Shown here one piece after another: positions 882-53,540 of a stretch of DNA of 64,000 bases. Source of the stretch: Physcia stellaris (lineage: Eukaryota; Ascomycota; Lecanoromycetes; Caliciales; Physciaceae). The stretch is taken from contig JABSSW010000007.1 in NCBI GenBank assembly GCA_018902385.1, positions 885,599 through 949,598 on the forward strand, in the 5' to 3' direction. The notes beneath the pieces were generated by a model. It made no database searches. It was not told the DNA's origin and was given only the letters and a program-made list of their open reading frames with translations. Each line of letters starts with the position of its first letter. Position 1 is the stretch's first letter. The position numbers and the translations under genes are program-made.

Positions 882-886
882 CGCTG
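882..886 (+). repeat. Target-site duplication CGCTG (left copy)
   Basis: The five bases CGCTG immediately precede the left LTR and recur at 6029-6033 directly after the right LTR. This fixes the element boundaries. Confidence 0.9.
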
Positions 887-17830: not shown

Positions 17831-17899
17831 TGTCTTCGGAGTATGCTAACAAAACTAGTAATCGTGAATCTGTTGAAGTAAACTCACCATCAAAGATAA

Positions 17900-20800
17900 T
17901 GTCAAGACGTTATATTGTTATAAACTAGAATGCAAACTTTGTACAATAATTCACATTCATCACATGTACGATAGATAGTATTATCATGAATAAAATGCAT
18001 GTTGCATTTACATATTTACAACAAATTATGAATTCGGCAATGTTTGTCAGATATCATTCGAATCGATTCATACTATTTTACAACGTTCAAACGTTGATTT
18101 CATGCATCGATCGAAAAATTTTTGATTGATTAAACGACGATCAAATTCGAAAACATCAAATTGAATTCACAACGAATTTATCGTCATTTAGTGTCGTCAA
18201 TAAAATGCATATTGTTTATTTTAACGATCGTCATTTAGTTTTTCAAAAATTCAAAAAATCAATATCGACGTCGATCGATAAAAACGTCATTTATCGTTCA
18301 AACGAACGTCAAATTCGAACGCACGATCGATCATTCGATTTCGATGAAAACGTTTTCAAAAAACACGAAATTTCACATACACGATTCGATGATTCAATGA
18401 ATTCGTCATTGTTTCGAATTGATGTTTCGAATTCATTTGTTACGAAATGAAAAAAAAAAAACAAATACGACATGAAATTCACACGTTTTACACGATTTCA
18501 CGAATCACATACGTTTTATTTTTTTTTTTTTTCATTTATACGATTCAAATTTTCAAATTCAAATATCACAATGATTACGTCAAATATCATTCACAATTTT
18601 GTCGTTTTCATTTCAAAATCAAAACAATATTTCAATTGAAAAATCGACGTCAAAAACGATTTTCGAATCAATCATGTTAAATAAACAATCAATTTATCAA
18701 TAAAATCAATGTTTATCGTCGAATTTTTACACAACAAAAATATCGATTAAAATTTCATCGATACAAAAACGAAAATCAAATTCACGAATTTCATCATCGT
18801 CGTCGAAAAACACGAACGAAATTTGAATAAAATTTTTTTTATTTGTTCAATGCAATGAACGTCAATTATTGTTTTTTTATCATTGTCATAACGAATTCAA
18901 CATCATTGATTTATTGAACAAAAATAGCAAAACGTTTCAAAAAAAATATTTTCGTTTTTTTCGTCGATATCATTTTCGATTTCATTGATCGATTTGTTAT
19001 TTTAGCGAACGTCGAATTTTACATCAAAGTCGTTGAATCATTACACAATCAACTGATCATCGAAAACGCTGACTCGAAACTCACTGTCGACGTATTCTGT
19101 CAGAATATTCTGCTGTTCAAAATGCACAAATTAACTCATCTCAATTATTTCGTGACTCGTCAACGTGACGAGTGAATTTTCGAAAACACAAATCTCATCG
19201 AAATCGAAATTCTTTTTCTGAATTTCGTTAAAATCATCATCGATACGATAACAAAATCAAATTCAATTGCATTAATCGTTAATCGTTTCGAAAAATTTAA
19301 ACGTATTCGTTTCAATACATCAAAATTTGAATACATCGATTTTTTTACATCAATCAAAAATGTATAAACAACGATTTCATCAAACATGATTTTGAAAAAT
19401 GTTATTATAATCATTCAAAAACGCTTTCAAAAATGAATTGATAAAAACATGTTTGATCATTCATACGACAAAACTTTGAAAAAAATTCAAAATTTACAAT
19501 AACAATCAACGTCGTTGATTGAATTTTGAAAACAAATTTTGTTCATTAATCATTCAATCAACGATATGTTGTGATACACAAATTCGAACGTCAATATTCA
19601 CGTGTGCAAAAATCGAAATTTGATACATTTTTTCATGTTTCACATCGAACATGTTGTAATTGCAAACAAAATTCGTTTCATTGTTGAAAAAAAAATCAAA
19701 TTATTGCTCGTTTTTTTTTACAACAATGCAAATGATCAATTCATTGATTTGTTAATTTTTTACATGTCAGATTCGTCAACAAATTTGTTGTCAATATCAA
19801 CATTCGAAAAACAAAACGTTTATTGAAATATTGAAAATTACATTTTCAAACATCAAAGCAAATCAATCGAATATGTTTTTTTTGCAAAACAACGAATTAT
19901 ACGTTTTGAAATTGCAATTACATCAAATGATTGCATTGTCAACAACATCATCATTGTCGTTTATCGTATGACATCGAAATTTGAATCACATGAATTTTTT
20001 TATTTCGTCAATATTTAAAAAAATTGAATCATTTTTATCAAAACGATTGCAAAAATAATCATTGCGATGTTTGCAAACTAATCAAAACAAAAAAATCGAA
20101 TAAAAAGAATATTCATCATGTCGAAAAAACGTTTCATATTATTCACATTGATTTAATATCAATAACGATCGAAAATTTTGAAAATGAACGTTATTACATC
20201 AATATCATCGATGACAAATCACGTTGAACGAAAATATACATCGTCAAAAACAAACACGAATGATTACAATGTTTTATTAAATACATCAATTGAATCAAAC
20301 GTCAATTCGATGTTGACGTCAAAATCGTACGTACAAATTATGACAACGAATTTCGCAACACGCAATCAATTAAGTATTTTGACAATCAAAACATTGAATT
20401 CAATTCAATTTCAACAAATGCTCAAAACGTCAATGATGTAATCGAAACACATCAACGCATTTTCATCATTATAATCAAAACAACGTTATTGACGAAAAAC
20501 ATATCGAATTTTTTGTAATCAAACATCACACATGCAATGACGTATATCAAAAATCGACGTTCAATTTCGTATTTTGAAAATCAATCATCGTTCGAAAATA
20601 TTTACGAACAATTTTCGAAATTGACGAACATGTATTCATTCGAATCAATCGTTTACGTTGTTATCAACAAAAAAATCAAAAATCATTTGAAATCGAATGT
20701 CGAAAAAAATTTTCATCGAATATGACGATGACATCATTTATCGAATTTACATATCGATTAGTCAAAAAATCGAACGCGTCAAAAATTTCGATATTTATAA

Positions 20801-22023
20801 TCACAAATCAACATCAAAATTGACATTGAATTGAATGAAAATCTTATCGAATCAATTGTTGATTTAACAATGATAAATTTTTTGTTATTCACATTGAATT
20901 CATTGCAAAAACAAAAAATTCAATTTTAAATTTTTCAAAACATTGAAATTCGATCACATATCAAAATCAAATTTTCAAATATCATTATACAAAAATCAAT
21001 GACGTCACAACAACAACAAAATTTCAAAAAATTTCACAAAATACGTTACAATGCGCTCAAACAAAAAAACAATTCGAATAAATTTTTTTATGAATTTTAT
21101 CGTTTACAATGTCATAATTTTTGTCAATTTCACGATGTTTCATTTAACAATACGTGAATTGCTCGCGAATTGAAATTCAAATTCAAATGATTTAATCGTT
21201 TTGTTCGACAACATTGTTGATTTTCAATCAATTTCAATTGCAAACGTTGAATTTGATACAATCAATTTCGTTTTATTGTTGATCGATTACGTCGAAAACA
21301 TCGACGTTTTCTCGTTTGAAAAATTCATAACAATGTTGACGATTGACGAGAAAAATCAAATAATTACAACGACGTTGCACGAAATTTTCACTTTTCACAA
21401 TGATTAAAAACAATGCAAAAAAAAAAATCTCGACTTTTTATCGAAAAATCACATTTGAAATTTAATAAATTTTACGTTCGATGAAAAAATCGTTGAACGA
21501 TAAATGAATTTACAAACTCAAACGCAATGTCGCTGACGTTGTAATACGATACAAAATTAAATAATGCGTCAAAGAATTTTTACAACAATACGACATTGAT
21601 TTTGATTAAATTTTTGTTTTCGTCGTCAAATCAATGATTTTTCGAATTTTATTCGTCGTTGTCGTTTTTTTTTGAATCTAAAAATTGAACAAATGAACGT
21701 GAAAATTGCGTTTCTATACGAATTCATTGATTCAAACATTTACGTTAAATATTCGATTGAATGTGACAATGACAAAGTTATTTGCAAATTGAACAAAATA
21801 TTGTATAATTTGAAACAATCATTCAAACTATGATATAAACGTTTGTTCGAATTTTTTTACAAAAGTTAATTTTCAATTTTTTCGACGCGAATCAAAACAT
21901 ATTCGTCACGAATGTTGATTTCAAGAATTTTATCATCATTACATAAATCGATGATATATCAAAATCATTGTTTTCAATAAAATCATGACTAATAAAACAA
22001 AAACGAAATTCAATAGCGTTTTT
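17900..22023 (+). mobile_element. Copia-like retrotransposon remnant C1 (mutated)
   Basis: Plus-strand reading frames, broken mostly by TGA, can be followed in Copia order. A gag-like part lies at about 18.1-19.5 kb. A gag-pre-integrase part (19602-19826) contains FFYNNANDQFIDLL. Integrase (20024-20227 and on) contains NNHCDVCKLIK and HIDLISITIENF. Then come RT pieces near 21.6-21.9 kb (LKIEQMNVKI, YNLKQSFKL). It ends abruptly at the left LTR of G1. No LTR of its own could be assigned, and its RNase H part is not seen after G1. It resembles C2 closely enough to be the same family. Confidence 0.75.
20024..20263 (+). pseudogene. Integrase fragment of C1 with Trp codons turned to TGA
   Basis: The frame encodes the integrase zinc motif (HCDVC) and the first catalytic Asp region (HIIHIDL). 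It then reaches TGA at 20225-20227 and 20261-20263 where the family normally has Trp after DDKSR and after the KNKHE-like stretch. Reading past the stops continues sensible integrase sequence, so these are point mutations TGG to TGA. Confidence 0.75.
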
Positions 22024-22250
22024 TGTTACGAGCATGTTTGACAAATAAATTTGACAAATAAATAGTTGATATGATATGATCGAACAACGAATTATGTTTT
22101 AATTTTACGTCGAAATTAGCGTGATTTGAAATTTGACGTCGCACATTGTTTGCAATTTCAACATTTTGTATTTATTTGTTTTTGCAAACTTATTGTTTTC
22201 GTCTAATTAGTCAATAATACGTTTATTCAAACACGATTCATGATATTACA
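22024..22250 (+). repeat. 5' LTR of G1
   Basis: Direct repeat of 227 bp matching 30515-30747. Between the two copies, by eye, most C:G versus T:A differences lie in CpT/ApG and two lie in CpA/TpG. Confidence 0.8.
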
Positions 22251-22277
22251 ATAAATTTTCAATTTTTATCGCTCGTC

Positions 22278-25200
22278 GTGATACGCGAACGTTCAAAAAT
22301 AAAATTTCAAATCGATCAAATTTTTCGTGAAAAACAAACGACGAAAAATTTTTCTGACGAAACAAACGACGAAAATCGTGTAATTACAAATCGAATTTAC
22401 ACGCAAACGACGAAATTTTCGACGATAAAAAACGACGAAACGACGACGATTTTTTATTTTTTTTTTTATTTTTCGAAATAATTCGCAATTATCATGAAAC
22501 AATTTCATTCAATTCATTTCGTCAAAATTTGAATATCGACGAGATACAAAAAAACGTTGAACAAATGTTGAAAGAAATTCACGAAATCGATGAAAAATTC
22601 ACGATTCGTTACAAATTTCGTCAATTTTTTTTTATTTAAACGTTGTGTCGAATCAAAACGACGATATCACGCATTTTTTGAACATAAAAATCGTTCGTCA
22701 ATTGAAATATTGAATTCAACATTATTTCAACGATTTTTTGAACGTGTTCAACGATTTACGTATCGATCGAAACAAATATTTAATTATTTTAAAAAATTTT
22801 CAGCAATTCGTCAAGTTGTTCAAAATTCAAAAACAAAATTTTTTTGATATCGACAATATTTTTGAAAAAATACGCGACAAATTTAAAACGTTAAAAAAAT
22901 GAAAAAAAACGAATTATAAATCAATTCATTGACAAACGTATCGAATACGATTTGATCAAATCGAAAAAATTCGTCGTTTTGAACGTGTTTTAATTTCGAT
23001 TCAAATGAAAATTCAAACAATATCGACGATAACGAAAAAAATCTGTTGTTGACGATTCGATCGTTACAAATTTTGTCAAATTTTCGAAAAAAAAACGCAC
23101 GAACAAACATTCGAATTTCGATAAATTCACGAACGATGTGAATTTTGATTGATTTACGTGAAAAATTAACGTTCACGATAAATTCACGATCAACAATGAT
23201 TGATACGAAATTGTTCGATTCATAATCACGACAATAATCGATTGAATTAAAAAAAAACAATCAAACATATTCAATTTCGTCGATATAACAATTTGAATTA
23301 TTTCGAAAATAAAATAATGATAATCAATTTTTTCGAAAACATTTATGAAAATTCAAATTATCAACGCAACGTACGTCGAAAATATCGAAATTTAATCATG
23401 TTCGACATTCAAAATTTTCAATTTTTTTATTCGAATTTTTATCGTTTGAATATTCAAATCAATTTCGATGAATTCACGTTGATAAAAAATTTGATTGACA
23501 AATTTATCATGTCGTTGAAACAAATTTTAAACAATTCGTTTCGTCATTATTTTTTTTTTTTTTGTTCGCATGAAAAAATGACATTCAACAAATATATAAC
23601 GATTGATCAACATTCGAAAAAAAAAATTTCGAATTCGAATTCAAAAATTAATTTTCGTGATTTTCAAATCGACGTTTGTTGTTTCGATTGCAATATCGTT
23701 CGTCAAATCAATTATATCGACGTTTTTTGTCAAATTTAAAAACGATTATAAATATGATTCGATTATCGATCAATTGATTGTCACGAACAAATATTTTACG
23801 TGTAAAAAATTCGATCATATTTGAAAATTCTGTTTCAATGTCAATAAATTTCAAAAACGTTAATGACATAAATTACAAATGTATCAATTGAATTTCGATA
23901 TTGATTCGAGCGAATTTGATTCGAAAAATTGACAATTCACGTCAAAAACGCGATTGATGAATGTTTAAAATTTTTTTTTATTTACGATAATAATATGTTT
24001 GACTTTTTCATCAAACGATTTTTAATTATTATTTGTACGTTATCATTCAACGATAATAAACATAAATTAAAAATTTTAATAAACATTGATGCAATTGATT
24101 ATGCGTTCATTGATAAAAAAATCGCGCAATTTGTATGCAACATGTTGAACATGAAATTCGTATTTTTATTGAAATCGAAATCATTGATTGAATTCGACGA
24201 TCGTCATGTTTTTTTTATAATTCACGCGATATATTTCAAATTGACGATAAAATTACATTTCGAATTGATCGTTTTTTTGTTAATCATTGATTTTGATAAT
24301 CATTCGATAATTTTAAAAAAATCGTGAATGAACAAACATGAAATCATATTGAACATGATTTACGATAAATTGATTTTTAAATCATTCAAATGTAATCATC
24401 ACGACAATATATTCAATCAAACGATTCAAATTCGTCGATTGAAAATTTTCAAATCAAATCGTCGATGAAACGTGTTTAATTGACGTCGCGATGCAATATT
24501 ATCGCAAAAAAATGATACAAAACACATAACGACGATGAAATTTCGATATATCATTTTGTTTCGTTTCAAAATCAAATTTTTATTTTTTATTGTTAAAAAC
24601 GAATTTGATATAATCGATTCGAAATATTTCGAATATTCAATTCATTCAAAAATCGATATCGACAACGAATCGTCAACAATCGAATCAAATAATTCAAAAT
24701 TGATATTACGATTGTTACGAAAACGACATTCGTCAAAAAAAAAAAAATTGAAAAATCAACGTAATAAATGATGAAAAACGAAAAACAACAATCAACGTTT
24801 TCGTTATTTTCAAAATTGAATTTTGACGATTCGATGAATATCGCAATGATTGATGCAATTTTTTTTTGTTTGTTGATCGATGTCAAAAATCGAAAATAAA
24901 ACGTTCAATGTTTTTTCATTACGATCAATCAAATCGATTTCGCGTTCAAAACATTACAAACGAATTTTGAATCGTTAAAAATCGTCGTTATAATCAAAAA
25001 AATTTTAAAACACGAACAAATCAAATCGATATTCGAACGCATAATGAAAAAAATGTCAAAATATTTTCGTCATTTATCAAAAATATTTGATTTTCAAAAA
25101 ATTATCAAATTGTTTTTTTATAAATTATACGATTATAAAATCGAATTGTTGAACGATAACAATTTTTTGTTTCGCAATCGAATGTATTTTTTATTCGAAT

Positions 25201-28200
25201 TCAAATTTAAAAAATTGAAAAAAAATTTGAAAAAAAATTTGCAAAAAAAATTTATCGTATTTAATCAAACGACATATGTTTTATTTGTTTTATTTGCGAT
25301 TAAATTTAACGATCAATTACGTTTGTGTGTGAATTATCGTCGATTCAATCACATTACGAAACGCAATCGATATTTCATTTTTTGATTGAAAAATTTTGAT
25401 CAAAATTCAAAATTGCAAATATTTGATCAAATTGAATATCATATCAATTTTCAATAAATTTCGAATAAATAAAAAAAATGAAAAATTTATCACGTTCGTC
25501 ATTTTTATAAAATCGTATAAATATCGAATATTATTTTTTGAATTAATTAATGATTTTGTTAATTGACAACATTACATAAATGATTTTTTGTTCAATTTTT
25601 TAAACGAATTTTGTTAAATTTATTTGAATGACATATTCATTTACAACAAATTCAAAAAAACATATCGTGCACGTTCGAACAATGTTGAAAAAATTCAAAA
25701 AAATCGATTTACAAATGAATATTAAAAAATGCGAATTTTTCAAAAAAAAAAAATGATTTTTTTGAACGTTATATTTTCGATAAATGATTTTCGCATGAAT
25801 TCAAAAAAAATACAAATCATAATTGATTGAACACGTTTTATCAATTTCAAAAAAATACAAATTTTCGTGAATTTCGTCAATTTTTATCGACGTTTTATTT
25901 GTGATTTCTCGAAAAAAATCAAAATTTTCATTCGAATAATCAAGAAACTCGTAAAATTCGAATGAATTACAAAAACAAAAAAAATTTTCAATTTATTCAA
26001 GAAAACGATGATCGAAATTTTCATATTTCGTTATTACGATAAAATCAAACAAATTATTTTAAAAATCGATTTTTCAAATTACGTCAATGCGAAAATGTTA
26101 TCGCAATACGATGACGAAAAAATTTTACATTTTGTTGTTTTTTACAATCGAAACATGATTTCAATCGAATGCAATTACGAAATTTATAACAAAAAATTAT
26201 TGATCATTATTCGTTGTTTAAAACATTGACGTTCAAAATTCGAAAATATTGACGAATCGATCAAAATTTTTATCGATCACAAAAATTTGAAAATTTTCAT
26301 AATTTCGAAAAAATTAATTTTTCGTCAAATTCGTTGAACAAAAATTTTATCGAAATTCAATATCGTTATTCAATTTCAATCAAAAATTCAAAACGTTAAA
26401 ATAAACGTTTTGATTCGCATGTCGAATTCACGATTTAAAAACGATAACGACGAACGACATCAATATAAAAAACAAATGTTATTCATTTTCGAACGATTCG
26501 AAATTTATGTCGTCGAATTTAACGAATCAATTTACGAACGAATTTTCGTCGTCAACAAAACAAACGACGATTACAAAACATATCGTAAAACGTTCAATCA
26601 AAAATTTATTTTCGTGAATAAAATCAATTTACGCGATTGTCAAAAAAACGATATTTTATATTACAAAAATCGATTATAAATGTTCGTCGATATTTTTTAT
26701 TTGTTGACAAGTAGATTCGAAGTTTTTTTAAAAAAACTTTGTTTGAATTGATATGAAAAATTTATTTTCATCAATTTGTATGCGATCAAAACTTCGCATT
26801 TCAATAATTGAAATTCAACAAATATTCAGCATCAAATTTCTTTCAAAACTTTACAATTTTGACTACATAGACGAAAATCATATCAAGTTCTTGATTGATT
26901 GCAATGTGCGAAGAAATTATTGATGTTCTTCGCCAAGATTTCTAATCCAATAAGATAGTAACTTTTTGAAGAGAAAACGATAGATATTTTTTATAAAATG
27001 TGTTCTATTTTTTCAAAAAAATTCATGAATTTTTCGCGTCGAATTATTTTGAATTTAATCGCATGAAAAATTTTTTACGTCGTAATTATTATTAATTCAA
27101 TATGCGCAAAACAATTCGTCAATACGTACGTAATTGTCATAAATATTAACGAATTAAAATTTTTCGAAATCGTAAAAACGATTTATTCATTTTTTTGATT
27201 ATATTTTTACAACGTTGAACAAATATATCAATTAATTTCGTCACGAAATTATTGAACGTTCACGATTATAATGTCATTTGCACGATAATCGACAAATTTA
27301 ATAAAAAACGTCATTATACATTTTGTACAACGAAAAACGAAAACACGAATGTTAAAATCACAACAAAAATATTTATTCAATACGTGTTTCGTATTCATAA
27401 TTTTTTTTTTTCATAATTTTTGATTGAAATTTTCAATTCGTGTTTTTTGTATGACAAATTTTTTGCAAAATTTTCGATATCAAATGTAAATTTTTCACGA
27501 TTTTTTATTCAAAAATTGATAATTAAATCGAAAAAATCAATCAAAACATCGAAAAACAATTGCGACAATATTGCAATTACATGCAAAACGATTGAAACGT
27601 TTAATTATTTATAATCGAATTCGCAAACAATAACGCGATTTTTGCATTTATTGAATTATTATCGTTTTTCGTCAACAAAAATTTTCATTTTCGTATGAAT
27701 TTTTCATCGAATTTTATTTCGTATGTTATCACAAAAAAACAATTTTTGATTGTCAAAACGAAAAACATCACAAACACAATGCAAAATATTTTCGATTATG
27801 TACGAATTCACGTCGAAATAATTCAAAAACATATAACGACACAAATTAACAAACATCGCAAAATCGTGAAATACGTCGAAAAAAATTACGTTTTTTTGAA
27901 TCGACGAAACATCAAAATCGTTAAATCATTCGACAAATTTGATGACAAAAAATTAAATTCGTACAAAATGTTAAAACGTATAAACAATTTTTATTAATTT
28001 GAATTGTTTGAAACAATGCGAATTTATGATGTGTTTCATTGTTAATTTTTTCGCAAAAATTTTTGTAATTTTTTCGAAAATCAAATTAACGAATCATTCG
28101 ATTTTGTTATAATCAACGAGAATTTCGAATGAAAAATGAACGATATTTTAAAATTTCGATATTATTACGATCGTTTTCAATATCGCGTCAATTGATCGAA

Positions 28201-28260
28201 TTGATCGTATAATCGAATTTAATATTACGTCGATAACGATAAATTCGATAATGTTCGTGA
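22278..28260 (+). pseudogene. gag-pol of G1, heavily mutated
   Basis: Open stretches in order: gag (22590-22847 and 23293-23739), retropepsin (23929-24327, where the expected D-S-G reads DAIDYAF), RT (25044-25385, with LRLCVNYRRFNHIT) and RNase H (26008-26229). A TGA at 25963-25965 stands at the conserved Trp of the F-x-W-T motif that precedes RNase H. The pre-integrase and zinc part is at 26410-26679 and, after the insertion, near 27110 (YVRNCH). The integrase tail is at 27695-27997 and a chromodomain-like segment near 28127-28250. Not functional. Confidence 0.75.
26707..27007 (+). mobile_element. 301-bp insertion in G1, short relative of the 43.3-45.6 kb insertion
   Basis: The G1 pre-integrase frame is interrupted after LLTS and resumes at about 27010. 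The insert starts ACAAGTAGATTCGAAG followed by a T7A7 palindrome, and ends TTATAAAATGTGTTCTA. Both ends recur at the ends of the 2.3-kb insertion in G3. It keeps CC, GG and AG dinucleotides (for example GCCAAG), so it arrived after most of the surrounding mutation. It has no coding frame, as expected of a MITE-like deletion derivative. Clear terminal inverted repeats were not found. Confidence 0.6.
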
Positions 28261-28697
28261 CGTAATAAATAATTATTATCGAAATTATTTTATCGTCGCA
28301 AATTCGAAATCATTCAAAATTACATTTTTCGTTTTTTAAATCGATGATCAAAATTCATTTGCGAATCGTCGTCGTTTTCGAAAAAAATCGTCGTTTTTTT
28401 ATTCATTGAAATTACGTTCGATTAAAATTTGAAAATTTCAATTAAATTTGAATTTATTTTGATTTCATTCGTTTGTTTCAAAAAAATTTTTTCAATTTCA
28501 AATTTCATTATTATCGTTTCGACGTTGTTTACAATCAGAATTTACGTCGCATAAAAAACTGAATCGTGTTAAAAATATTTTCAGAAATTGTTGTTCGATT
28601 TTATTGAATTGTGAATTGATGCAACATATTGAAAAAATCAAAAAATAATAATCGTGAAAATTTCGAATTTCGAATTTGTTCAAAACAATCGACAACG

Positions 28698-28855
28698 TGT
28701 TAGAGACTGTTCCAGAGACGTCACGTGACAGTTTCAATAGAACTAGCGGCGTCAAGGCGATCATCGCGAGCATGTAAATATCTTCTCGCACACATCCTGC
28801 TAGTGAATCAATCAATATTTATCCAACCACAAGCAGTTCAACTTTCGTTGTAACA
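28698..28855 (+). repeat. 5' LTR of E1
   Basis: 158-bp LTR; the right copy is 151 bp, a net 7-bp difference near 28756. Both contain CACGTG and ATGTAAATATCTTCTCGC, possible promoter elements. Relative to the right LTR it carries T:A for C:G at 28728, 28733, 28734, 28741 and 28742, each in a CpC context. Confidence 0.9.
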
Positions 28856-29087
28856 ATTGGTAGCATCATCTATACGATGTCCTCCGTCTAGTTACTGTGT
28901 AACGTCCATTTGCTGTGCAATATCTAGCCCCCGTGGAGCATTCAGTCGATGCCCGACGATAACGGCCTCAGTTGCTCTGCAACACCCATTCAGTCAGAAA
29001 ACACCTACCTACTCACCTACCTATCCATTTACCTACCTACCTCGAGTCCTCCATCCATTTCGCCAATATCCTACCTATTCGCATATC

Positions 29088-30215
29088 ATGGCCTCAATCC
29101 CGCCTTGGTCCTCCACCTTATGCGACTGTTTCGCAAGTGGCCTCATGTCCGATATGGCCGCCTCCAAAACCCCTCAACGCATCTACCAAATCCACCGAGA
29201 CCATTCCCTTTGCTGCAAATGGTATCTGCAAGTCGAGCGAACCCGCGATACTCATGCAAAGCAAACCCGACAAGCCGAGCAAGCCCGCCTGACCGAACAA
29301 CAACCAGTTCAGGATCTGAGCGCTCAGATAGTCGAGAATGTCATGAACTCTTGGCAGAGCACCTGGAAGAAACTGGTACAACAACAAGCCAAAGAAGTCC
29401 GTCTAGAAAAGGAGCGTCAAGAAGCCGAAAAGGCCAAAGCAGAAGCCTTTGCATGCAGGCGTTGCCCTGCGAAATATCCTAGCAACACCAAGCTTCACGA
29501 GCATATTCGCGATCACCATGCGAAGAAGCCGAAACCTACTCCTCCTCCTACACCTCCTGAATCGATAACCTCCCTACCTGATAGCCCGAAGCCTGCACCG
29601 CAGCCGAAGGCCCTACCTACTCCACCTCCTTCACCTCCTCAATCGGTAATCGCCTCACTCAACTCCACTCCTCCAACTTCGATATCCTCACCACCTTCTA
29701 CACCGAAGCGAGTCACCTCACCGAAACGCTCACCTCTCTCGGGTTCTGCACCAGAATTCGTACCCAAGCGCTCAGAGAGTGCTCCGCTTACTCCGCCTCC
29801 TTCGCCTCCTCATACGCCTGCTGCAATGCAGTCAACACCCCCCTCCAAATCGACCTCCAAAACACCTTCGAAACCCTACCTGACGGTAGATGATCTGTTC
29901 CGCATGTTTGCTGGGAAGCCTAAACCAATAGGCCTGCAACAGCACCAAAATCACCAATCCTCCCCGCGCACCTTTGGCACTCCGAAACGAGGCCCCATGC
30001 AAATGCGCATAACCTCCTACTTCCTACCCGAAATCGACGAAATCCGAAGCCTCCACATCAGTGTATGGTTCGGTCAAACAGTCGGCCCGCATTTCACCTC
30101 CGCGGTCTCCTCCATCTCGACCTTCTCCTTCGGTTCGATCCTTGTTCTCGACAAGCCCCTATTCCTCTCCTGTCTGCTGGCGCTGTCAAGGACCTTCCGC
30201 CACCTATCTGCCTAG
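29088..30215 (+). CDS. C2H2 zinc-finger protein encoded by LTR element E1
   Basis: From ATG 29088 the frame gives 375 residues. The frame is open further upstream to the LTR, but without an earlier convincing ATG. The N-terminal third is followed by a charged, probably helical segment (KEVRLEKERQEAEKAKAEA). A single C2H2 finger comes next at about residues 122-145, CRRCPAKYPSNTKLHEHIRDHH (C-x2-C-x12-H-x4-H; seen at 29452-29520). The rest is Pro/Ser/Thr-rich with repeated TPPPSPP-like units, then a conserved-looking YLTVDDLFRMFAGKP motif. A CCTA-type simple repeat lies just upstream (about 29001-29044). It has no similarity to gag-pol that I can see. It could be a captured host gene or an element-specific nucleic-acid binder acting as a gag substitute; both are inference. 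Confidence 0.75.
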   Translation: MASIPPWSSTLCDCFASGLMSDMAASKTPQRIYQIHRDHSLCCKWYLQVERTRDTHAKQTRQAEQARLTEQQPVQDLSAQIVENVMNSWQSTWKKLVQQQAKEVRLEKERQEAEKAKAEAFACRRCPAKYPSNTKLHEHIRDHHAKKPKPTPPPTPPESITSLPDSPKPAPQPKALPTPPPSPPQSVIASLNSTPPTSISSPPSTPKRVTSPKRSPLSGSAPEFVPKRSESAPLTPPPSPPHTPAAMQSTPPSKSTSKTPSKPYLTVDDLFRMFAGKPKPIGLQQHQNHQSSPRTFGTPKRGPMQMRITSYFLPEIDEIRSLHISVWFGQTVGPHFTSAVSSISTFSFGSILVLDKPLFLSCLLALSRTFRHLSA

Positions 30216-30301
30216 CAATTGGACTGGTTCCATTGCCGCAAGAGCTGGGATACCTATGGGACGACGAGGGCGCCGTCTTTTCGTTTAAAAAGTGGGCATA
30301 T

Positions 30302-30452
30302 TGTTAGAGACTGTTCCAGAGATGTCACGTGGCAGTCCCAATAGGGCTAGCGCCGCCGCAAGGCGAGCATGTAAATATCTTCTCGCACACATTCTGCTAG
30401 AGCATCAATCAATATTTATCCAACCACAAGCAGTTCAACATTCGTTGTAACA
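30302..30452 (+). repeat. 3' LTR of E1
   Basis: 151-bp partner of the left LTR, followed by the CAACG duplication at 30453-30457. It keeps CCC (30337-30339) and GGG (30344-30346) where the left copy has TTC and GAA. Confidence 0.9.
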
Positions 30453-30514
30453 CAACGTTTTAATTTCGAATCAACGACGAATCGTCGAAACGACGTTCGC
30501 GAAAAAAAAAATAA

Positions 30515-30747
30515 TGTTACGAACATGTTTGACAAATAGATGTTTGACAAATAAATAATTGATGATATGATATAATCGAACAACGAATTATGTTTTAATT
30601 TTACGTCGAAATTAACGTGATTTGAAATTTAACGTCGCACATTATTTGCAATTTCAACATTTTGTATTTATTTGTTTTTGAAAATTTATTGTTTTCGTTT
30701 AATTAATCAATCAAGACAATTATATAAACACGATTCATGATATTTTA
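30515..30747 (+). repeat. 3' LTR of G1
   Basis: Matches 22024-22250. It is preceded by an A-rich run (30501-30514) that could be the mutated polypurine tract of G1. Confidence 0.78.
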
Positions 30748-40307: not shown

Positions 40308-40312
40308 AATTG

Positions 40313-41734: not shown

Positions 41735-41916
41735 TGTCAGAAAGTCGTCGCATGTAATTAATTGTATTGAAATTGACGAAAATATTAATTATGCAACGAT
41801 ATTAATTACATGTTGAAAAATTTTTTATTTGCGATAATCATTCGATTAATCGTTTCGATGATTCGCAAACTCGTTCAATTCGAATTTGACAAAAATTCGA
41901 AATCAAAATCATCACA
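41735..41916 (-). repeat. LTR of G3 (3' LTR in the element's orientation)
   Basis: 182-bp direct repeat of 51597-51777, preceded by CATAA. By-eye comparison of the copies shows about six transitions in CpT/ApG, three in CpA/TpG, one in CpG and none in CpC; no CC is left to mutate. Confidence 0.87.
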
Positions 41917-42249
41917 TTATTTTTTTTTTAAAATTTCGCGAAATTTCGACGAATTCGTTTCGTTGTTTTTTCACATGCATGTTGTCATAAACGATCGTTA
42001 AATGTATCAATTTAATTTCTAAATCTTTTGAGCAACGCATAGTGTTCATTTGAAAACGTCAATGTACGTGAAGCAATCATTTTAATGCGCTTTCGTTTTT
42101 TCAATGATTTCATTAAGCGACTAAAACTGATTTTCAGTAATTGCGTTCGTTCGTTTTCATTAACATTGTTCAATGTTCATTGAGTTTTTGCTATTTCGTT
42201 AATTATCTGATGAGATTCAATTTTCAAATCGTACAAAAATTGCATGTGA

Positions 42250-43296
42250 ATTCGTCTTTTCTGAATATCTGTGATGAAAATCGACTATCAAATGCGATGT
42301 TGTTTTCAAATCAATGTATGTGTATCAATCGAACGTTGTATTAAAATTATTTTGATTTGATCATTTCACTCGATATTTTAAACAGCTTTTAGTTTTTGTC
42401 GTTGAATCATTCATTTTTCTATCGATTTTGAAATTCAGAATTTCGTTTATTTTTCACAAATTTTCATTGACGTCGATCGCAACAAATGACGATTGCACGT
42501 TTTGTTGTTCAAACATCGAATTTTCATCATCGAAATGTAAAAATCAAAAATGAAATATTGAAAAACATTCTTTCATGATTTGCGACAATTTCAATTCGTA
42601 AACACAATTGTCAATCATTCGTATGATTTTGAAAAAATTCAAATTTTTATAATCGAAATTTTTGTTGAATCGCATGATTTTAATATATCGCGCATTGAAC
42701 ATGATCATGTCATTTATTTTGAATTCGAATGCAAATGTTCGATGTGCGTTAACATATTTTTTTTGTTTGATTTGAAATCATTTGAATTCGTTTTTCAAAT
42801 ATTGTTTTAATTTTTTTTGTTTAACAATGAATTTATCGACATTTTTCATTTTTCGTCGTTGCACAAATTCGTCAATTATCGAAATCGATGATTTCAAATT
42901 TGATTTAAAAATATAACTTTTAGTGATCAAAAATGATTCAATGTCACTTGATGCGTTTTTGTTGAAATTGCTTTCGAATTTCGTTATAAAAAAATAATCG
43001 TATCAGTCGTTCTGACTGAAATTGACGTAAATTCTCAAATATTGTTTGAAATTTGCATTGACGTTCTCGATCTGATCGTCTGTTTCTGAATGTCAAACGA
43101 TGAAAAATTTGAAATGAATGTCTATTCTTTCGCACAATCGTTGTCAGAAATAAAACACAAACTGAATGTCTCGATTTGATACTATTGAATTTGAATAATT
43201 CTTTTCTTTTCATACTCATTCTATGAAAATCTGTATCACGACACTGACTTTCAAAGAGTTTAATGAAATATATTTTTTTTTTGAAAAGTTTATTCA
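42250..43296 (-). pseudogene. Integrase core and chromodomain tail of G3
   Basis: On the minus strand the integrase core resumes right after the nested insertion. It has a KKKYISLNSL-like start, a second catalytic Asp in NSIVSNRD and a HSETDDQIENVNA stretch that carries the usual Glu. TGA stands at complement 43210-43212 and 43216-43218, where the family has W-x-W, and again near 43020. A chromodomain-like segment (INEILNFKID) follows near 42440. It is broken by stops and frame changes. Confidence 0.7.
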
Positions 43297-45595
43297 TAGA
43301 ACACTTTCTATAAAAAAAAGTTCGTTTTTTCTTATCAAGAAGTTTTTTCCCGATCGGAACATCAGTCGTAGAAATTCAAGAACATCAACTTTCATTGCAT
43401 TCTCATTCACAATCAATCATTATGCACACAGACTCATGAAATCATCAAATTGTAAAATTAACTCAGCGCATTTCAACGCATCAACAATCATTAAAAACGA
43501 ATATATATCAAGAATGTTGTGAGATTCAGAAATATCGAGATTTTCGAGCTCGTCAAGCTTGCTCGCAAATCAGAGTCTGATTTCGACTCATTTCAAAATC
43601 TTTTGTTAAATTCGATGTTTTCATCAATATTTAATTCAGATTTTCAAAGAGAAAAACGATCATTGCTCATTGAATTTAGCACGAACATCAAAACAATTTG
43701 AATTCATACAATTGCTGTGCAGTTTGCACATCAATCATCAATCACATGAAATTTTGATTTGTTGACATTCAATTATAGAACAGATTAAACGCATTTCAAT
43801 GAATCAAAAATAACGAAAATCGATTCATTGACGCAAAAGTTATGATCGATGTAAATTATATGTTTTGTTGAAAAACTTGTCGAATGATCGAAATCTCGCA
43901 GAATCTCATTTGTTTATTTATCTATTTATCTATTTACTTATTTATCAACTTGCTCATCTGCACGTTCGTTATGAAAGATTTTCTCGATTTTGATCTGTGT
44001 ATCAATGTCTTTTCACGAGAACAAGTTTTTAGACGCGCGAAAAAGCGAAAAATGCGTCACAAACAACAATCGGATTCTCGCTTTCGATTTACTTTTTACT
44101 CTTTCTTTTTCTTTTCTTTTTCTTCTTTTTTTTTTTCTATCGACGATTGAAATCATCTGCTCGAAAAATGAATGTTTCAATCAACAAACAATTTTTTATC
44201 GAACATAATGTCGAACAGTACATCGACAATCTGTTCGATTTCGTCAAAAATATACTTTACTCAACTCGACGTTTCATTTTCGATGTTTTTTCATTGAATG
44301 AAAAATTAAGAAATCGATCGAAACGATTGATTGAACACGTTCAGATTGAAATTAGACTTGCAAAAACTGCATGATTAATTCATACAATTCTTGATGTTTT
44401 CGAATTCATGAATTTCGATCGAATTCTCAAAACTCGATACAACATCATTAAAAAAAATTTACTCAAAGTCATCGTCAATTCAAAACGTTGCGATGAGTTT
44501 TACAGACAAACTTTTCACGATGTCGACGACGAGAAAATTGAAATTGCAATTCGTTTTCAAATCGAATATCATCGAGCGACTATTGAAGTCGAATCAGAAA
44601 ACAACAAAAAAATGCAAAATGATTCGAATTGAATATTTCTAAAACGTTTCAAGAAACGCAAAAAATGAATCATGATCGACTTTCTCAGAAAATCATTCGT
44701 GTATGAATCGAAATTATTGAAGACGTCTTCAGTCAATTCGACTTTTCTGAACAGAATACGTTCGTATTTGATCAATATCAACGTTTTTCGTTTTCGTCTT
44801 CAGCGAAAACAGTTAAATAATCTCAACTTATCAGCGTTGTTGAAAATCTGCGAGAAAAAAAATCATATTGCAATTTTCAAAAGTCAACATAAATACATAG
44901 AATCGAAAATGATCGATATTAAAGCTAATTCAAATTAAAACTCTATCGCGTTATATTCAATCGAAAATCATGATATGTTTCGAAGATGTGCTCAAATGAC
45001 TGCAATTTCTGCAATTCAAACTTCATGTTTGACATTGAGACTTTTCAAGTTACTTCAGATTTGCGACATTTTTTCTCGATCTGACTAACTCAAAATCTAT
45101 TTGACGATCAATCATCAAAAATGTAGTTTGTCGTTGCAGTTGATTTGCAGCTTGCACATCAATCAGCAATCAAATATGATTTTCACTTATTTGATCAAAA
45201 ATGTAAATCAAAATAAGCGCATTTCAACGTTGCAAAAATAACAAAAATCGATTCATTATCGCAATAGTTTTGAAATTTGAAAAATCATGTTAAAAATGTG
45301 TTTGTAAAACAATTTCTCAACAACGTTTGCAAAGCAATTATGCGATATTCATTATAATTCAATGCGCACTCGTTCGATTTTTGATGTTTTTGATTTTTTG
45401 AATAATGTTCATTTCGTATTTCAAAACGAGTCTTCGAATGTATAGTTTACTTACTGAATTAAAATGCTATTAAAATGCGAAATCGATAAGATCGCAAAAC
45501 GAATGCGAAACGATTTCGCAATCTTATCAGATCTGACTCTAACTCTGAAAAATCTCGACAAAGTTTTTTTTAAAAAAACTTCCGAATCTACTTGT
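43297..45595. mobile_element. 2.3-kb insertion in the integrase of G3, larger relative of the 26.7-kb insertion
   Basis: The G3 integrase frame breaks after IIIIT (about 45596) and resumes at about 43296. On the minus strand the insert begins ACAAGTAGATTCGGAAG plus a T7A8 palindrome and ends TTATAGAAAGTGTTCTA, matching both ends of the 301-bp insertion in G1. It retains CC, GG and many AG/CT dinucleotides (for example TTCCCGATCGGAAC near 43347), so it is younger than G3. It carries an unrecognised frame on the plus strand and a TCTA/TTTA simple repeat near 43915. It could be the longer member of an undescribed element family. Confidence 0.6.
44408..44938 (+). pseudogene. Unrecognised ORF in the 2.3-kb insertion
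   Basis: One plus-strand frame is open over 44408-44632 and again over 44672-44938, separated only by two TGA codons. If these were Trp, the frame would run for about 177 codons. The translation is basic and mixed (for example NSKRCDEFYRQTFHDVDDEK) and matches no transposase, RT or other domain I know. Its codon character is better than that of other frames here, but coding is not proven. Confidence 0.35.
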
Positions 45596-48500
45596 TATAA
45601 TTATAATGTGTTTGTAATTTTTATCGTTACGTTTGCATATCGATAAAAATGTTATGAAATCTATCGATATGTTTTGAGAATAGCGATTCGATATAGATAA
45701 CGATTTCAACAATTTTTGTTTATTTTCTCGATATGTTTTGATTTTTTTGCATTGATGACAATTGTTGACGTATCGAATCACTGTATCAGTCATGCGTGAT
45801 CAAAAATAATGCGTAAAAATTTTATCATAAATTGTCGCTTTGTCGACATGTTCGCTCGATGATGACTCGTGTATTTGTTTAAACATTGTTGAAAAAACGT
45901 CATCATTATGAAATACGTAAAGTTTGTTTTTTATTCAAAATAATTCGTTTTTTATTTCGCAGTTTTCTAGTTTTAAACGTATTTCGATTTTGATAATGTT
46001 TGTCAATATTCGTTTTAAATCATTGCGTTTACTTTTCATTATTCTTTGTAAAATGATGTCATTTGAATATGTCGCTCTTATTTGCTCTACTATATCGAAT
46101 TGAAACATAAATGAATCAATCGTTGATTTTTCTTCTGACTTCTCAATTGTTGATTTTTTTTCAAAAACACGTTTTGCAAACGATTTTTCATCTGATTTTT
46201 CGTTTGCAAAAAGTCTCTTTTCGCTCAATTCGTATAGCATCGTCGCTAAGATAGTAATTTTTTTCTAATTCTCATTCATTAACAACGATGTCAATTTGAT
46301 AACATTGCGAACTCTCTCGTCGAAATAATGAGACTTTAATAAAATTCGATGATTGAATTGTTGACGTTCATCTTGTTGTTTTTCAAATAAATTTTGAAAT
46401 CGTCGAATTAAATTGTCAGATTTGATGTCTTGTACTTTCGATTTGTACGTTATCTTAAAATTGAATTCGATCAAAAATTCGACTCATCTAATTTGTCGAC
46501 GATTTAACTGCTTTGACGTCATGAAATGTTTCAAATTTTTGTGATCGATGAAAATTTTAATAAAATTTTTCATCGACGTGTTTGCGCATTTTGATCGTCA
46601 TTTTTCGAATGTTTTTATTATTGTCAACAATTTTTTGTCGTAAATTTCGTAATTGCATTTTGTCGACGACATTTTTTTGAACATGTAAACAACGAAATGA
46701 AATTTGTCGTTCGATTTTATTTGATTGAAAATTGCGACGACGACAAAATCGAAAACATCAATTTTTATTCACGTTTCATTATCAGAATTAAAATGTTGCA
46801 ATATTGATGTCGTAATAAATGTTAATTTCAGAATTCGAAACGCGACTTTTTCGAAATCATTTGAACTTCATGAAAATGCGAAATTTTTTTTCTCATTTTT
46901 TGTCAATTTATTCAAAGATGTGATTATTTTGAAATAATCAAAAATGAATTTTTTATAGAAATTAGCGAAATCGAAAAAAGCTTGAACGTTTTTGACGCAT
47001 TTGAGTGATTTTCAATTGATTATGACATCAATTTTTTTAGAATTCATCGTGATTTCATTCGTTGTTATGATCAATTCGAAATATTTGATTGATGTCACAA
47101 AAAATTCAAATTTGTCGATGTTCAAATACAAATTCGCTTTTTTTAGTTTGATTAGAACTTTAAATACGTGATTCACATGAACTTTTTTAATGTCGCTGTA
47201 AACAATAACATCATCTGCGTATTTTGAACAAAAATCGTCAAAATATTCTCTCAGTGTGACATTGATAAATGTCTGAAAAATTTCTGAAACGTTGCACAAT
47301 TCGAAAAACATAATCACATATTCGAATAATTCGTAGCGAATTAAAAATGCTGTTTTTTTTTCATTTTTTTCTTTGATGCGTATCTCGTTGAATGCGACTA
47401 TGATGTCGAATTTGCTGTAAATTTTGATCGAGCACAATCTCGTTAATGTTTCTCTAATCAACGAAAATGCGTTTCTATTCTTGATTGTCAAAACATTGAA
47501 AATTCTATAGTCAACGCACACTCGCAAATCATCTTCGAATTTCTTTATTATCAAAATCGATGTTGCGTACTCGAAAAAGTTTGATTTGATGAAATCTTTG
47601 TCTAACATATCGTCGATATATTTTTTAATCATTTTGATCTGATCACGAAACAATTCGTACGTTTTCTTTGTTGAAAATGTCGTTTCGAATTTCAAATCAA
47701 TGCGATGATTTCAATCTTTTCTGAAAAAAAGTTTATTTGCTTCGACAAAACTGAAGATTTTGACGTATTTGTGAAATTCGACGAAAATTCTCTCTTTCAG
47801 TTGTTTTTTCGTGAGCGAAATTCTGTCAATTTTGCTAAAAAATCTCTCAAAATCTTCGACGAAAATTGTCGTTATGTTTATCGCAAAAGAATTCGTCAAC
47901 ATGTATTTATTTTGTTTTTGAATTTATTCAACATTTCAAAATATTCGAATCACATTGTTATAATTTGATTTTTGTTTTGAATCGTCATTTTCATGAATGC
48001 AATAGTTGTAATTTCTGTTATGTTTGCATCGATAAATGATTTTTGTTTGACGATTTTTTGATGTCGAAATTGTAAACAATCGTTGATTGATAATTGTGAA
48101 TGCAATTTTCTAAACAATGATCGAACGCAAAAATTATTGATTTATTTTTACAAAATATATTCATTGAGTGTTGTTTCAATCATGACATATTCAAAATCAA
48201 ATCGAATTTTTTTAAAACTGTTATCAGACATCAAATTTCATTGACATGTTTTTTCAATTGAAATTTTATTCGAATCATGCGAATAATATTGAAAACAAAT
48301 TTGTCATCGACTAATCGAAACTTGATGAATTTAATGAAAATCATGATATCGAATTTGTATTGTTTCACGAAATTGACATTCACGAAATTCGACGTCGAAA
48401 TTTCTGTATTCGTTATAATTGATGTTTTTGTTGTTTTTGATGAAATTTGAATTTTGTCTTGAAAATTCAATTGTCGTTCATTGATAATTTTGAATTACAA

Positions 48501-50747
48501 AACGTTCAAAATTAATAACGATAATTTGACGATATTGAAATGCGAATCGATTATGTGTTCGAATTGTTTGATTCGTTTGCGCATTTTTTGAGAAATTTTC
48601 GAACACGATTTTGTTCAAAAATTTTCAGTTTTTTTTGTTCGTCGTCGATCGATTCGAAAAATTTATCGTTCAACAAATTGCTTTTTCAATTTTTATTTCG
48701 TTTCATTTCATTTCGAATTTCGCGAATTCAATTATGATTTTCTTAAAATCAAATTTTTGATTTTTGCACGAAACATCTTGTTCGTTGACTCGATAATCGA
48801 GTTTAAAGCACTTGTAACATTTCTTTTCGACTTTGAATTTGTTGACAACATGAAAAAACAATTGAAATAAATTGTATCTTGCGTTTCTGTTTTTGACTAC
48901 TCGAATCGTGAAAAAAATGTTAACGATTCTGTTCTTAATTACACGAGAGATTGTATTCGTAGTTCGAACTCTGAAAGTCTTCGAAATCTTGAACTCGAAA
49001 TGACGATCAATGTCATTCAAAATCTTTTTTTGATGTGCTATCGCTCTCATCTCTCGAACGAATCTATGATAATTTTTGCACTTCGATAAATGAATCATCG
49101 CATTAATCAAGCGCTTGATGATAATTCTAAATAACTGATTAATTTTGAATGTATCAATCAAATTGACGATATTATCAAATTATTAAAACGATTCAAATAT
49201 TGTTCGAAAATTTCGTTTTTGTTTTTGAATTTCATAAAAATTTGCTTTTGAAAAATTCATTGTATCGAAATTATTCATTTTATCGAAATCATCGCACACG
49301 TTTTCAAATCGTTTATTAATTTTTCAATGAATTCATACGAATACGCGTTATCATAATCGACACGATGTTGATGATATTTCAGATTAATTTTTTACAATGA
49401 TTTCGTACGTAATAAATTTTATTTTTCTCGTTAGAAAATTGTCATGAATCTGATTCGAATTTGATTTTCAAATGAATTTTCATTGTTTTTCATTCGTCAT
49501 GATTTTCATAAAAGTTGAAAATGTCTTGATATTTAATTTTATGCTCGTGTTGAATACGAAATATCAACGAGTGTTTTTTTGAAAATGTTGACTCATGAAA
49601 GCGCCCGAAAACTCGTTCTTGAGAAAATATAATTGATTTTCGCAAAAAATCTTTAGATAGCAACTCGATAAAATCTTTTTCATGTCGAAAATTTTGACGT
49701 TTAAATTTTTTACGAATATTTTTCTGATCAGAATCATCAATGAAATTTTTTTGACATGTTTGTTTATTGATGATATTTAAATTTTTTTCAAAATTGTTTT
49801 ATTCAATCGAAAAGTTTTTATTTTTTCGATTAATTTATTTTCGAATTCGATGTTGATTTCGACAACGTTTCATTCGAACAATTTTCATTTTTGATGAGCT
49901 AAATTTTTGTCGACAATTTGATTGAATAACAATTGATTTTTCGTTTAAATTAATCGAAATTGAAAATCAAAAAACTTTTGAATTTGAACGATGTTTTGTC
50001 GTTTTTTTTTCAATTGAATATTTGTTTTCGCATATTTTTGTTGAGTTTTTGTTTCAATTTTTTTATCAAATTCATTTAAATCAAAAAACATAAAAATATT
50101 TTGCATTCAATCAATTGATCGATCGACAACGTTTTTTTAAACTCGTGATGTTTTTCATTACAAATGAAATTGATGATTTGACATCTTTGTCAACGAATTT
50201 AAAATATAAATTAAATCGTTTTTTGCGATAATAATTTTTTGATTCGAAAATTCGAATTCGATAATAAATCGTCGATGAAATTGTTTGTGTCGAAATCGAC
50301 GTCGAATTTTGATAATCGAAAATATGATTTGAAAATCGTTTTCTCGTGTCGACGTATGAAAATTTTCGAATGCGATTTTTTGTGAATTTTCATTTTTTTC
50401 ATTTTTTTTCGATTTTGAATCAGATATGTCGTGCTTGACAACGAATTCGAAAAATCAAAAATTTTCGATTTATAAAATTTTTTTTGAATGATTTGATTTT
50501 GAATGTTTAGAACTTTTTCATACGATTCAGTCGAATATTGAAAACTGATTTTTTAAAAAACTGATTTGATTGTTCGAAAAAAATTCTGATATTCGATAAA
50601 AGAATGTTTTTCAGCAAAAAAATCAAAATAATGAATAAATTTTCGAATTCGATTGATACGATTTCGATTTGTCATGTTGACAATGATATGTTTTGTAAAT
50701 ATTTCAGATTTCGACTTTGAGTGAATAAAAAAATTTAAACGAATCAA
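45539..50747 (-). pseudogene. gag to integrase zinc region of G3, mutated
   Basis: The RT part (47695-47012) is still open for 227 codons despite heavy mutation. It shows LRVCVDYRIFN, KYADDVIVYSD (the catalytic DD pair is intact) and Pro-to-Ser and Gly-to-Asp/Glu changes throughout. The integrase zinc part (45793-45539) has YVNNCHQCKKIKTYRENKQ. Gag is split between 50747-50211 and 49161-48703. Retained His, Gln and Arg codons and lost Pro, Gly and Trp codons mirror the loss of CC/GG with survival of CA and CG. Confidence 0.75.
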
Positions 50748-51777: not shown

Positions 51778-53530
51778 CATAATCACAAATTATAAATAAT
51801 TCAAATTCGTCAAATTGAATGAACGTTGTCGAAAACGAAATTCAATTTTGAACAAAACAATATATGAATTTTGATAAATCGTACGTTCGATAATCGAAAA
51901 TTTTTAAACGATAAATGAATTTTCAAAATCAAACGAAATGTTGAAAAAAAATTCGTTACAAAATTCGATGAATTGTTAAAAATTATTTGCAACAATATGA
52001 CATTGATTTCGAACAAATTTTTGTTTTCGTGATCAAATCAATGATTTTTCGAATTTTGTTCGTCATCGTCGCATTTTTGAATTTGAAAATCGAACAAATG
52101 AACGTCAAAATTGTTTTTTTTTTTTACGATTTCATCGATACAAAAATATACGTTAAATATTTCGAAAATTACAACGAAAAAAATTTTGCAAATTTCACAA
52201 AACTTTATACGATTTTAAACAATTTTTCGTTTATGATACGAACGTTTAACAAAAAAAAATTTTTGAAAAATTGAATTTGCATTATTTATACGTCGATCAC
52301 AACATTTTTGCAACGACGAAAAATTTCAAAATTTCATATTCATTTTTTGAATTGACAATATCAAAATCATTGTTTTTTTATCGTCATAATCAACAAAATC
52401 AAAAAAAAATTGTTCGTTGTTTTCGAAATGTTTGATATGAAATCAATTAATTTTTATTTAAACATAATCGTCATCAAAAATCGTGATTGCAAAAAAATTC
52501 AATTCAATTAAAAATTTATATCAAACGCGTCGTTATCAAATTTGATCGAAATGAAATCAAATCAATACATATTTCAATGCGAACGAATTTCGTTTCGATT
52601 TTTAACGAAAATTAAATTTTTGAATTCGACACAAAATTGTATCAAATCAAAATTGATTTCGTTATGTTTGTTATAATCGAAATCAAATCAAATGTTTTTA
52701 ACGTCATTTTTATCGTCAATTGTTTCGTTCAAAATTCAAACAAAATTCACATGAACGTCGTAAACGATATTTTCGATTATTTTAATATCATTAATCGTTT
52801 AAACATTGTTTACGAAAAAAATTTGAATTTATAAAATTATTGCGACGTCAATTACGATGACGATTTGATTATTAAAAAATCAATTGACGTTTACGTTTTC
52901 ATTTTCAATAAAAAATCAATAAATTGAATGTCAAAATTTCAATTTATCGTGATCATTTTCACATGCGTTGCAAAATATATAATCATTTCGACGATCATTA
53001 AAAAAATTACGTGATTTCGAAATTTGTTCGTCGATTTACACATTTATTATCAAAACGAAAAATACGTTATTTTACAAATACATATCGATAATCAAAATGT
53101 CAAAATTTTCGTCGAAAATTCAATTTATCATGATCGCATCAAACACGTCGATATCGTTTATTATTACATTTGAAACGAAATTAAAATTAATCGAATTTGT
53201 TTACATTACATTTTTATTCAAAACATGTTTGTCGACGAATTTATCAAAATTTTGATTTTTATCAAATTTCGTTGTTTTATTCAAATGTTGAACATGAATT
53301 AAATTCAAAAACGTTGTATTGTTATCATAACATGTTGAATTTTTCGATTTTAAATCATTACATTGAATATTGAAATGTTTTACAACGTAAAATGAAATTC
53401 ACATCAATTTTTGATGATAAATTCATTTTCGTCAGTAAATTTTATTCGAATTCGATTCGAAAAAAAATGTTGCAATTAATTCATTTAGAATTAAAGTTGC
53501 AAAAAGTTCGATGAAAATCTCAATTTCAAA
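51778..53530 (+). mobile_element. Copia-like remnant C2, third piece
   Basis: The Copia frame resumes with RT (51987-52274, QQYDIDFEQIFVFV and LKIEQMNVKIVFF) and continues to RNase H. There HIDNQNVKIF and IKHVDIVYYYI are visible near 53080-53170, then a FVDEFIK segment near 53230 equivalent to the usual A-D-G-F-T-K. An A-rich run near 53460 may be the mutated purine tract. The right LTR could not be defined, and the block ends at about 53540. Confidence 0.72.
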
Positions 53531-53540
53531 TTTTGTACAC

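Follow-up and report, generated by a model that had tools for sequence, protein, structure and literature searches.

Transposon copies in the lichen-forming fungus Physcia stellaris carry dense C-to-T mutation at CpC and CpT, a context roughly the reverse of that described for repeat-induced point mutation

Transposon copies dispersed in the genome of Physcia stellaris, a lichen-forming fungus of the Caliciales, have been densely mutated from C to T, and the cytosines affected are above all those followed by a pyrimidine. We describe this pattern for 64,000 bp of contig JABSSW010000007.1 (positions 885,599 to 949,598 of the forward strand; assembly GCA_018902385.1), hereafter called the window, and for related copies elsewhere in the genome, which comprises 44 Mb in 147 contigs. 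As an overall explanation, we consider a process of the type of repeat-induced point mutation (RIP), carried out by an enzyme that reads a 3′ pyrimidine, to be probable. The sequenced material was an axenic ascospore culture, and the terms “RIP” and “repeat-induced” are absent from the accessible text of the genome paper (PMC7513301). The mutated DNA of the window forms two tracts separated by an element of ordinary composition, and an unmutated Copia element in the same window served as the reference for the direction of change:

18038–28697, no strand: mutated tract 1, degraded transposons in which CC/GG is nearly gone and CT/AG rare, with CA/TG and CG retained.
30453–53574, no strand: mutated tract 2, likewise made up of degraded transposons and matching tract 1 in composition.
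28698–30452, plus strand: element of normal composition (GC content 52%) nested between the tracts, 1.75 kb long, with direct terminal repeats of ∼158 bp.
885–6028, plus strand: Copia element of normal composition (GC content 48.5%) with 147-bp terminal repeats that are 94.6% identical.
1217–5959, within the Copia element: Copia frame of 1580 amino acids.

An earlier reading made from the letters of the window alone (the sequence-only reading) had treated 17831–53540 as a single region that has lost CpC and CpT and kept CpA and CpG. The loss pattern holds, but its limits had to be redrawn: 28698–30452 is normal, 17831–18037 is transitional in composition, and tract 2 runs on to 53574. The counts given for seven sampled rows of sequence were reproduced (32 CG, 2 CT, and no CC, AG or GG), except that CA occurs 24 rather than 25 times. 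For a quantitative comparison with the flanks, we used positions 18038–28670 and 30453–53540 on both strands (67,438 dinucleotides). CpC accounts for 0.01% of the dinucleotides in the mutated tracts versus 5.54% in the flanks and CpT for 1.23% versus 6.63%, whereas CpA (6.38% versus 6.87%) and CpG (5.71% versus 5.32%) are nearly unchanged, so that absolute densities bear out the claimed loss and retention. Over the whole interval 17831–53540, again on both strands, the odds ratios are 0.17 for CC, 0.30 for CT, 1.27 for CA and 2.93 for CG, compared with 0.91–0.95 for CC and 1.03–1.08 for CT in the flanks. The high value for CG reflects the scarcity of C and G after mutation, as CG is about as dense in absolute terms as in the flanks; CpA and CpG are retained rather than enriched. 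TpA, which had been described as not enriched, indeed has an odds ratio of only 0.44 in this interval, but its absolute density is slightly increased (5.72% versus 4.70%).

The depletion extends over long distances. The longest runs free of CC and GG measure 12,923 bp (30426–43348) and 8,895 bp (18038–26932), and positions 18101–28000 contain two CC plus GG, compared with a minimum of 265 among 200 base shuffles. By the classical signs of CpA-directed RIP (CpA depleted, TpA enriched, indices positive), these tracts appear untouched: the product, substrate and composite indices, with thresholds as quoted in the accessible part of PMC7882544, are all negative in each of the 34 one-kilobase segments with a GC content below 33%, as the sequence-only reading had expected from a single row. 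Beyond the window, we counted cytosines flanked on each side by eight A or T throughout the genome and found 88 CC, 1,020 CT, 14,851 CA and 14,870 CG (corresponding to 7,435 palindromic sites); the reversed patterns AC, TC and GC occur at 4,844, 11,327 and 1,477 sites, respectively. A Gypsy query led to 30 loci, including the window itself (L001); the odds ratio of CC is at most 0.20 at all of them and lies between 0.00 and 0.01 at 26.

The direction and the context of the change can be read directly from alignments of Copia copies. Three mutated copies (L035, L036 and L037, out of 43 matches listed) were compared over approximately the first 2.5 kb of each with the window Copia, in which CC and CT are ordinary (odds ratios 0.89 and 1.01); that the elements lacked CC and CT from the outset is therefore rejected, since unmutated relatives carry both. 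At CpC, C had changed to T at 233/268, 236/261 and 251/265 sites in the three copies (87, 90 and 95%), and at CpT at 162/312, 222/304 and 271/307 sites (52, 73 and 88%). The corresponding numbers are 12/349, 26/346 and 44/348 (3, 8 and 13%) for CpA and 14/328, 22/322 and 21/322 (4, 7 and 7%) for CpG. The reverse situation, C in the mutated copy and T in the reference, accounts for 0–7%. Replacing the reference by L038 or L039, both of normal composition, gave 88–89% at CpC, 50–52% at CpT, 3% at CpA and 4% at CpG for L035. The load is graded among the copies, and the changes are found on both strands to about an equal degree. Thus, the alignments show repetitive DNA degraded by C-to-T change that does not fall mainly in CpA, and the preference CpC > CpT > CpA/CpG proposed from the window stands.

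No strong requirement on the 5′ side is seen. The fraction changed at CpC was 0.89, 0.91, 0.86 and 0.96 for ACC, CCC, GCC and TCC, and that at CpT was 0.71, 0.79, 0.63 and 0.74 for ACT, CCT, GCT and TCT, respectively. Isolated CCA had become TCA, with the second C retained, at 70, 69 and 63 of 77 sites in the three copies, and CpC is therefore a direct target and no by-product of change at CpT. Strand clustering of the CpT changes reached p ∼0.05 before correction in two of six tests, from which we make no claim.

A Gypsy family represented in tract 2 allowed us to resolve the late part of the order. Its copy in the window includes the following features:

42201–49489, minus strand: Gypsy-like copy in two pieces (42201–43297 and 45585–49489), with at least seven further copies in the genome at 83–94%.
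43298–45584, no strand: insertion within this copy, shared with copy L002 and missing from L003 to L007.
47012–47695, minus strand: open frame of 227 amino acids with a reverse transcriptase domain (PF00078), with which relatives in other fungi were sought.

Among ten copies (L001–L010), 21 of the 45 pairs could be aligned over at least 800 bp, and for each context we related the sites differing by C/T to the sites with C in either copy. The pooled values are 21/28 for CpC, 1,820/2,232 for CpT, 1,943/9,411 for CpA and 1,180/6,842 for CpG. In the closest pair, the window copy and L002, CpT differs at 165/288 sites, CpA at 37/629 and CpG at 11/522. From L003 to L005, the most AT-rich copy compared (GC content 18.7%), 161/518 CpA sites are affected versus 38/456 CpG sites, indicating that loss of CpA has begun. 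A single order, CpC > CpT >> CpA > CpG, fits all copies, in which CpA follows much later and CpG comes last. The insertion at 43298–45584 has lost CpC (0.11%) and kept about half of its CpT (3.54%), compared with 0.00% CpC and 1.87–2.16% CpT in the Gypsy sequence around it; the position of the insertion suggests that it is a younger element than its Gypsy host. In tract 1, positions 24614–28269 likewise have dispersed copies, at 90–92% (L012 and L019).

This order leaves a distinct signature in coding sequence. When the three mutated Copia copies are taken together, 42 of 44 TGG codons had become TGA and the other 2 TAA. CAA never changed to TAA (0/39), CAG changed to TAA once and to TAG never (54 codons; 1/93 for glutamine to stop as a whole), and CGA never changed to TGA (0/39). 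CC was kept in 2/103 CCN codons and GG in 1/129 GGN codons. A mutator directed at CpA would instead be expected to convert TGG to TAG, and CAA and CAG to TAA or TAG. Consistent with the Copia codons, reverse transcriptase matches at 150 scored loci, out of 792 candidates, contain 272 TGA, 56 TAA and 5 TAG stops, with six loci free of stops (tallied by hand). Two Gypsy-type matches (G000:C5:1166470 and G000:C12:60261) have long frames without stops, of 1024 and 1151 amino acids, unlike most of the family.

The mutated DNA coincides with repeated DNA, as seen from the dispersal of the copies in the genome and from sharp borders at two of them. At the copy at C7:753190, CC is ordinary in the flank until 55 bp short of the element and reappears ∼60 bp past its other end; inside, a few CC occur in the first ∼60 bp and none from there to the end of the piece examined. 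The left border of the copy on C66 is similar, with CC remaining in the first ∼150 bp of the element. In these mutated Copia copies, some CC is thus retained in the outermost 60–150 bp (L043 from 1854, L044 to 197 and L041 from 2191), and mutation seems weaker at the ends of an element than in its interior. A regional AT bias is rejected, as the mutated DNA of the window is interrupted by the element of normal composition at 28698–30452; CpG-type deamination is likewise rejected, CpG being the best-kept dinucleotide. The nested element has terminal repeats that are 87% identical and encodes a 452-amino-acid frame without a Pfam match, and numerous diverged relatives of it are scattered over the genome, of which the closest is 83% identical. 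The genes in the window are of ordinary composition. The frame at 14986–17172 corresponds to G7Y79_00007g022850, with a 100% identical protein.

Candidate enzymes for such a process are encoded in the genome. The C5-methyltransferase domain PF00145 is found at three loci (L031, L032 and L033). L033, which corresponds to NCBI protein P0232 (932 amino acids), contains the motifs SPPCQ and EQTSG, and L031 contains SPPCQ and EETFG as well as two in-frame TGA within apparent introns; the two match at 40% in the catalytic part and at 34% in an N-terminal part. Since the RID/Masc1 class is marked by the PF00145 domain, a catalytic PCQ and Glu-X-Thr instead of ENV, both appear RID/Masc1-like by their motifs. 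SPPCQ is present in 119 of the 120 relatives of L033 among those listed, and the named ones come from lichen fungi or their metagenome bins. L032 best matches PDB entry 9bap (E 2e-181), which we presume from its length and title to be DIM-2, and hence appears DIM-2-like. The homologue search proposed by the sequence-only reading thus yielded two putative RID/Masc1-like genes and one putative DIM-2-like gene as candidate mutators.

Based on these observations, we propose that a process of the RIP type hypermutated the transposons of P. stellaris from C to T on both strands and within the confines of the elements. Its enzyme would require a pyrimidine 3′ of the target C, acting on CpC first and on CpT next, hardly on CpA at first, and sparing CpG most. 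The mutator could be one of the three C5-methyltransferases with altered target recognition, the trigger could be repeat homology, and the timing might be the sexual phase. The limitation of the tracts to elements and the genes present suggest a genome defense of the RIP type. Because the RIP enzymes described so far favor CpA, a shift of specificity is a simpler assumption than a new chemistry.

Several observations weigh against this proposal. Described RIP prefers CpA, a preference that is not found here. Confinement to the element is seen on both sides at one copy and on the left side at one other, and to the right of the C66 copy, CC remains scarce over 2.6 kb or more past the element (L042). 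Moreover, the window Copia and two further copies at G000:C8:899306 and G000:C42:395511 (L038 and L039) are ∼95% identical over 4.7 kb and of normal composition; active RIP, which strikes every repeat beyond a certain length and identity, should have mutated them, which makes full present activity doubtful. The same applies to the dispersed 1.75-kb family with its nearest relative at 83%, which is also of normal composition. An idle or slow process could account for this, as could a recent arrival of the copies in question. C/T differences among the unmutated Copia copies affect 3.0–7.0% of CpC, 2.3–3.4% of CpT, 2.0–3.1% of CpA and 2.2–5.1% of CpG sites. The weak excess at CpC may have an ordinary cause or may reflect slight activity of the process, and we do not choose between the two.

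A separate mutator, such as an AID/APOBEC-like cytidine deaminase with a 3′-pyrimidine preference acting on transposon DNA or complementary DNA (cDNA), would fit the fact that CpC and CpT are not first-rank targets of described RIP, and the methyltransferases named above are candidates only. However, the known DNA deaminases of the AID/APOBEC class read the 5′ base, whereas it is the 3′ base that decides here, and editing of cDNA would favor one strand, whereas both are mutated about equally. A search of the genome for PF08210 (APOBEC_N) gave no match, but the controls were equally silent, so that this is no evidence of absence. Overall, we regard a separate deaminase as unlikely. If CpC and CpT in transposons were densely methylated and then lost to ordinary deamination in the course of many generations, no dedicated mutagenic step would be needed. 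The three C5-methyltransferase genes would suit this scenario, and fungi can methylate cytosines in the CHH context, according to the accessible part of PMC8016269. In the same text, however, the main methylation targets of Zymoseptoria Dim2 are CpG and CpA, with less methylation at CpC and hardly any at CpT, which is opposite to what this scenario requires. The transversion distances, calculated by hand from the tallies, are ∼1.7–2.1% between the mutated copies and the window Copia and ∼1.3–1.6% among the three unmutated copies. Slow decay is unlikely because transversions barely exceed those of unmutated copies, while the C-to-T load differs hugely, and we give methylation followed by decay little credence as well.

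Ultraviolet damage, which produces C-to-T changes at dipyrimidines and could affect a sun-exposed lichen, would match CpC and CpT, but TpC is a dipyrimidine too, and TCA changed at only 22/254 and TCG at 16/351 sites; since such damage would also not end at transposon borders, we reject it. An assembly or sequencing artefact has next to no probability: Nanopore reads were used for the assembly, but so were Illumina reads (PMC7513301, accessible text), the two mutated tracts are separated by an element of normal composition, copies differ by degrees in their load of mutations, and a similar loss of proline and glycine is found in proteins from other public datasets.

These proteins are relatives of the reverse transcriptase frame that were retrieved from databases. 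Whereas the evidence at the DNA level comes from P. stellaris, other fungi were compared by protein composition, and a search of viral and genome contig collections for DNA relatives of the mutated reverse transcriptase confirmed none. Of 111 relatives, 86 lack proline and glycine (codons CCN and GGN) and 52 also lack tryptophan, with the caveats that the query itself is nearly devoid of these residues, which biases the sample, and that very strong classical RIP would remove proline and glycine too. None of the 86 reaches 90% identity with the P. stellaris copies compared. P0126 (no proline, one glycine) and P0216 (no proline, glycine or tryptophan) match the P. stellaris genome at best with 62% and 54%, respectively, and therefore point to a similar loss in other species. 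P0126 retains 4.4% arginine and 2.6% histidine plus glutamine, as allowed by kept CpG and CpA. Among the database relatives (P0121–P0231), some without proline and glycine still contain 1–3% tryptophan, probably because gene callers using genetic code 4 read TGA left from TGG as tryptophan. It is conceivable, although we hold it with less than even confidence, that the RIP enzyme of at least some lichen-forming Lecanoromycetes switched from a 3′ purine (CpA) to a 3′ pyrimidine (CpC, then CpT). If so, surveys based on indices would score this inverted RIP as absent, and its signature would be tryptophan codons turned into TGA with glutamine and arginine codons spared.

Within P. stellaris itself, the RIP indices can give false negatives, as none of the 34 plainly mutated segments passes them, and gene callers may read through TGA codons derived from tryptophan. 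An old question, where in RID or DIM-2 the 3′ base is recognized, becomes testable, since P. stellaris offers a natural system of opposite specificity for swaps into Neurospora.

The comparison with known systems rests on the accessible portions of the papers cited. According to a survey published in 2025 that covered 1,239 fungal genomes, RIP-like defenses have a preference for CpA in common (PMC12543289), a rule to which P. stellaris would be an exception; another paper states, to the contrary, that CpT changes dominate alignments from RIP-capable fungi (PMC7882544). In line with the sequence-only reading, which knew of no ascomycete RIP of this order, our literature search found no CpC-first case among the titles and abstract openings it covered, most subscription papers being outside its reach. 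In Botrytis cinerea, Magnaporthe oryzae, Colletotrichum truncatum and Anisogramma anomala, CpT-biased signatures have been described (PMC4352252, PMC6180176, PMC10998396). CpT is thus a main target as in P. stellaris, but there it is paired with CpA, and the texts consulted do not name CpC as the first target; one table links signatures at CpA, CpT and CpG with classes of RID or Masc2, and in it CpT never appears without CpA (PMC4352252). The RIP-like mutation of Microbotryum and Rhizoctonia solani (PMC2621366, PMC4014442) shares a non-CpA context with P. stellaris but targets CpG, the dinucleotide best kept here. Closest in lineage, the Lecanoromycete Cladonia rangiformis has large AT-rich transposon tracts as well as RID and DIM-2 homologues (PMC12542154); its RIP was defined by a GC content below 35%, and the text consulted gives no order of contexts. 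In Trichoderma reesei, RIP has been shown experimentally and has a context order of its own, printed as CpA∼CpG, CpT>CpC with one sign lost in the text (PMC5496416), so that CpC comes last there and first in P. stellaris. For Neurospora crassa, where RIP is linked to RID and DIM-2, the order is CpA>CpT>CpG>CpC (PMC5496416). P. stellaris resembles N. crassa in the very dense, element-limited C-to-T change on both strands of repeats and in its apparent RID-like and DIM-2-like genes, and differs from it in its order of contexts, in a TpA content that hardly rises and in negative classical indices. The context in P. stellaris is therefore roughly the reverse of that of described RIP, and the mutation is RIP-like in the other features that could be tested.

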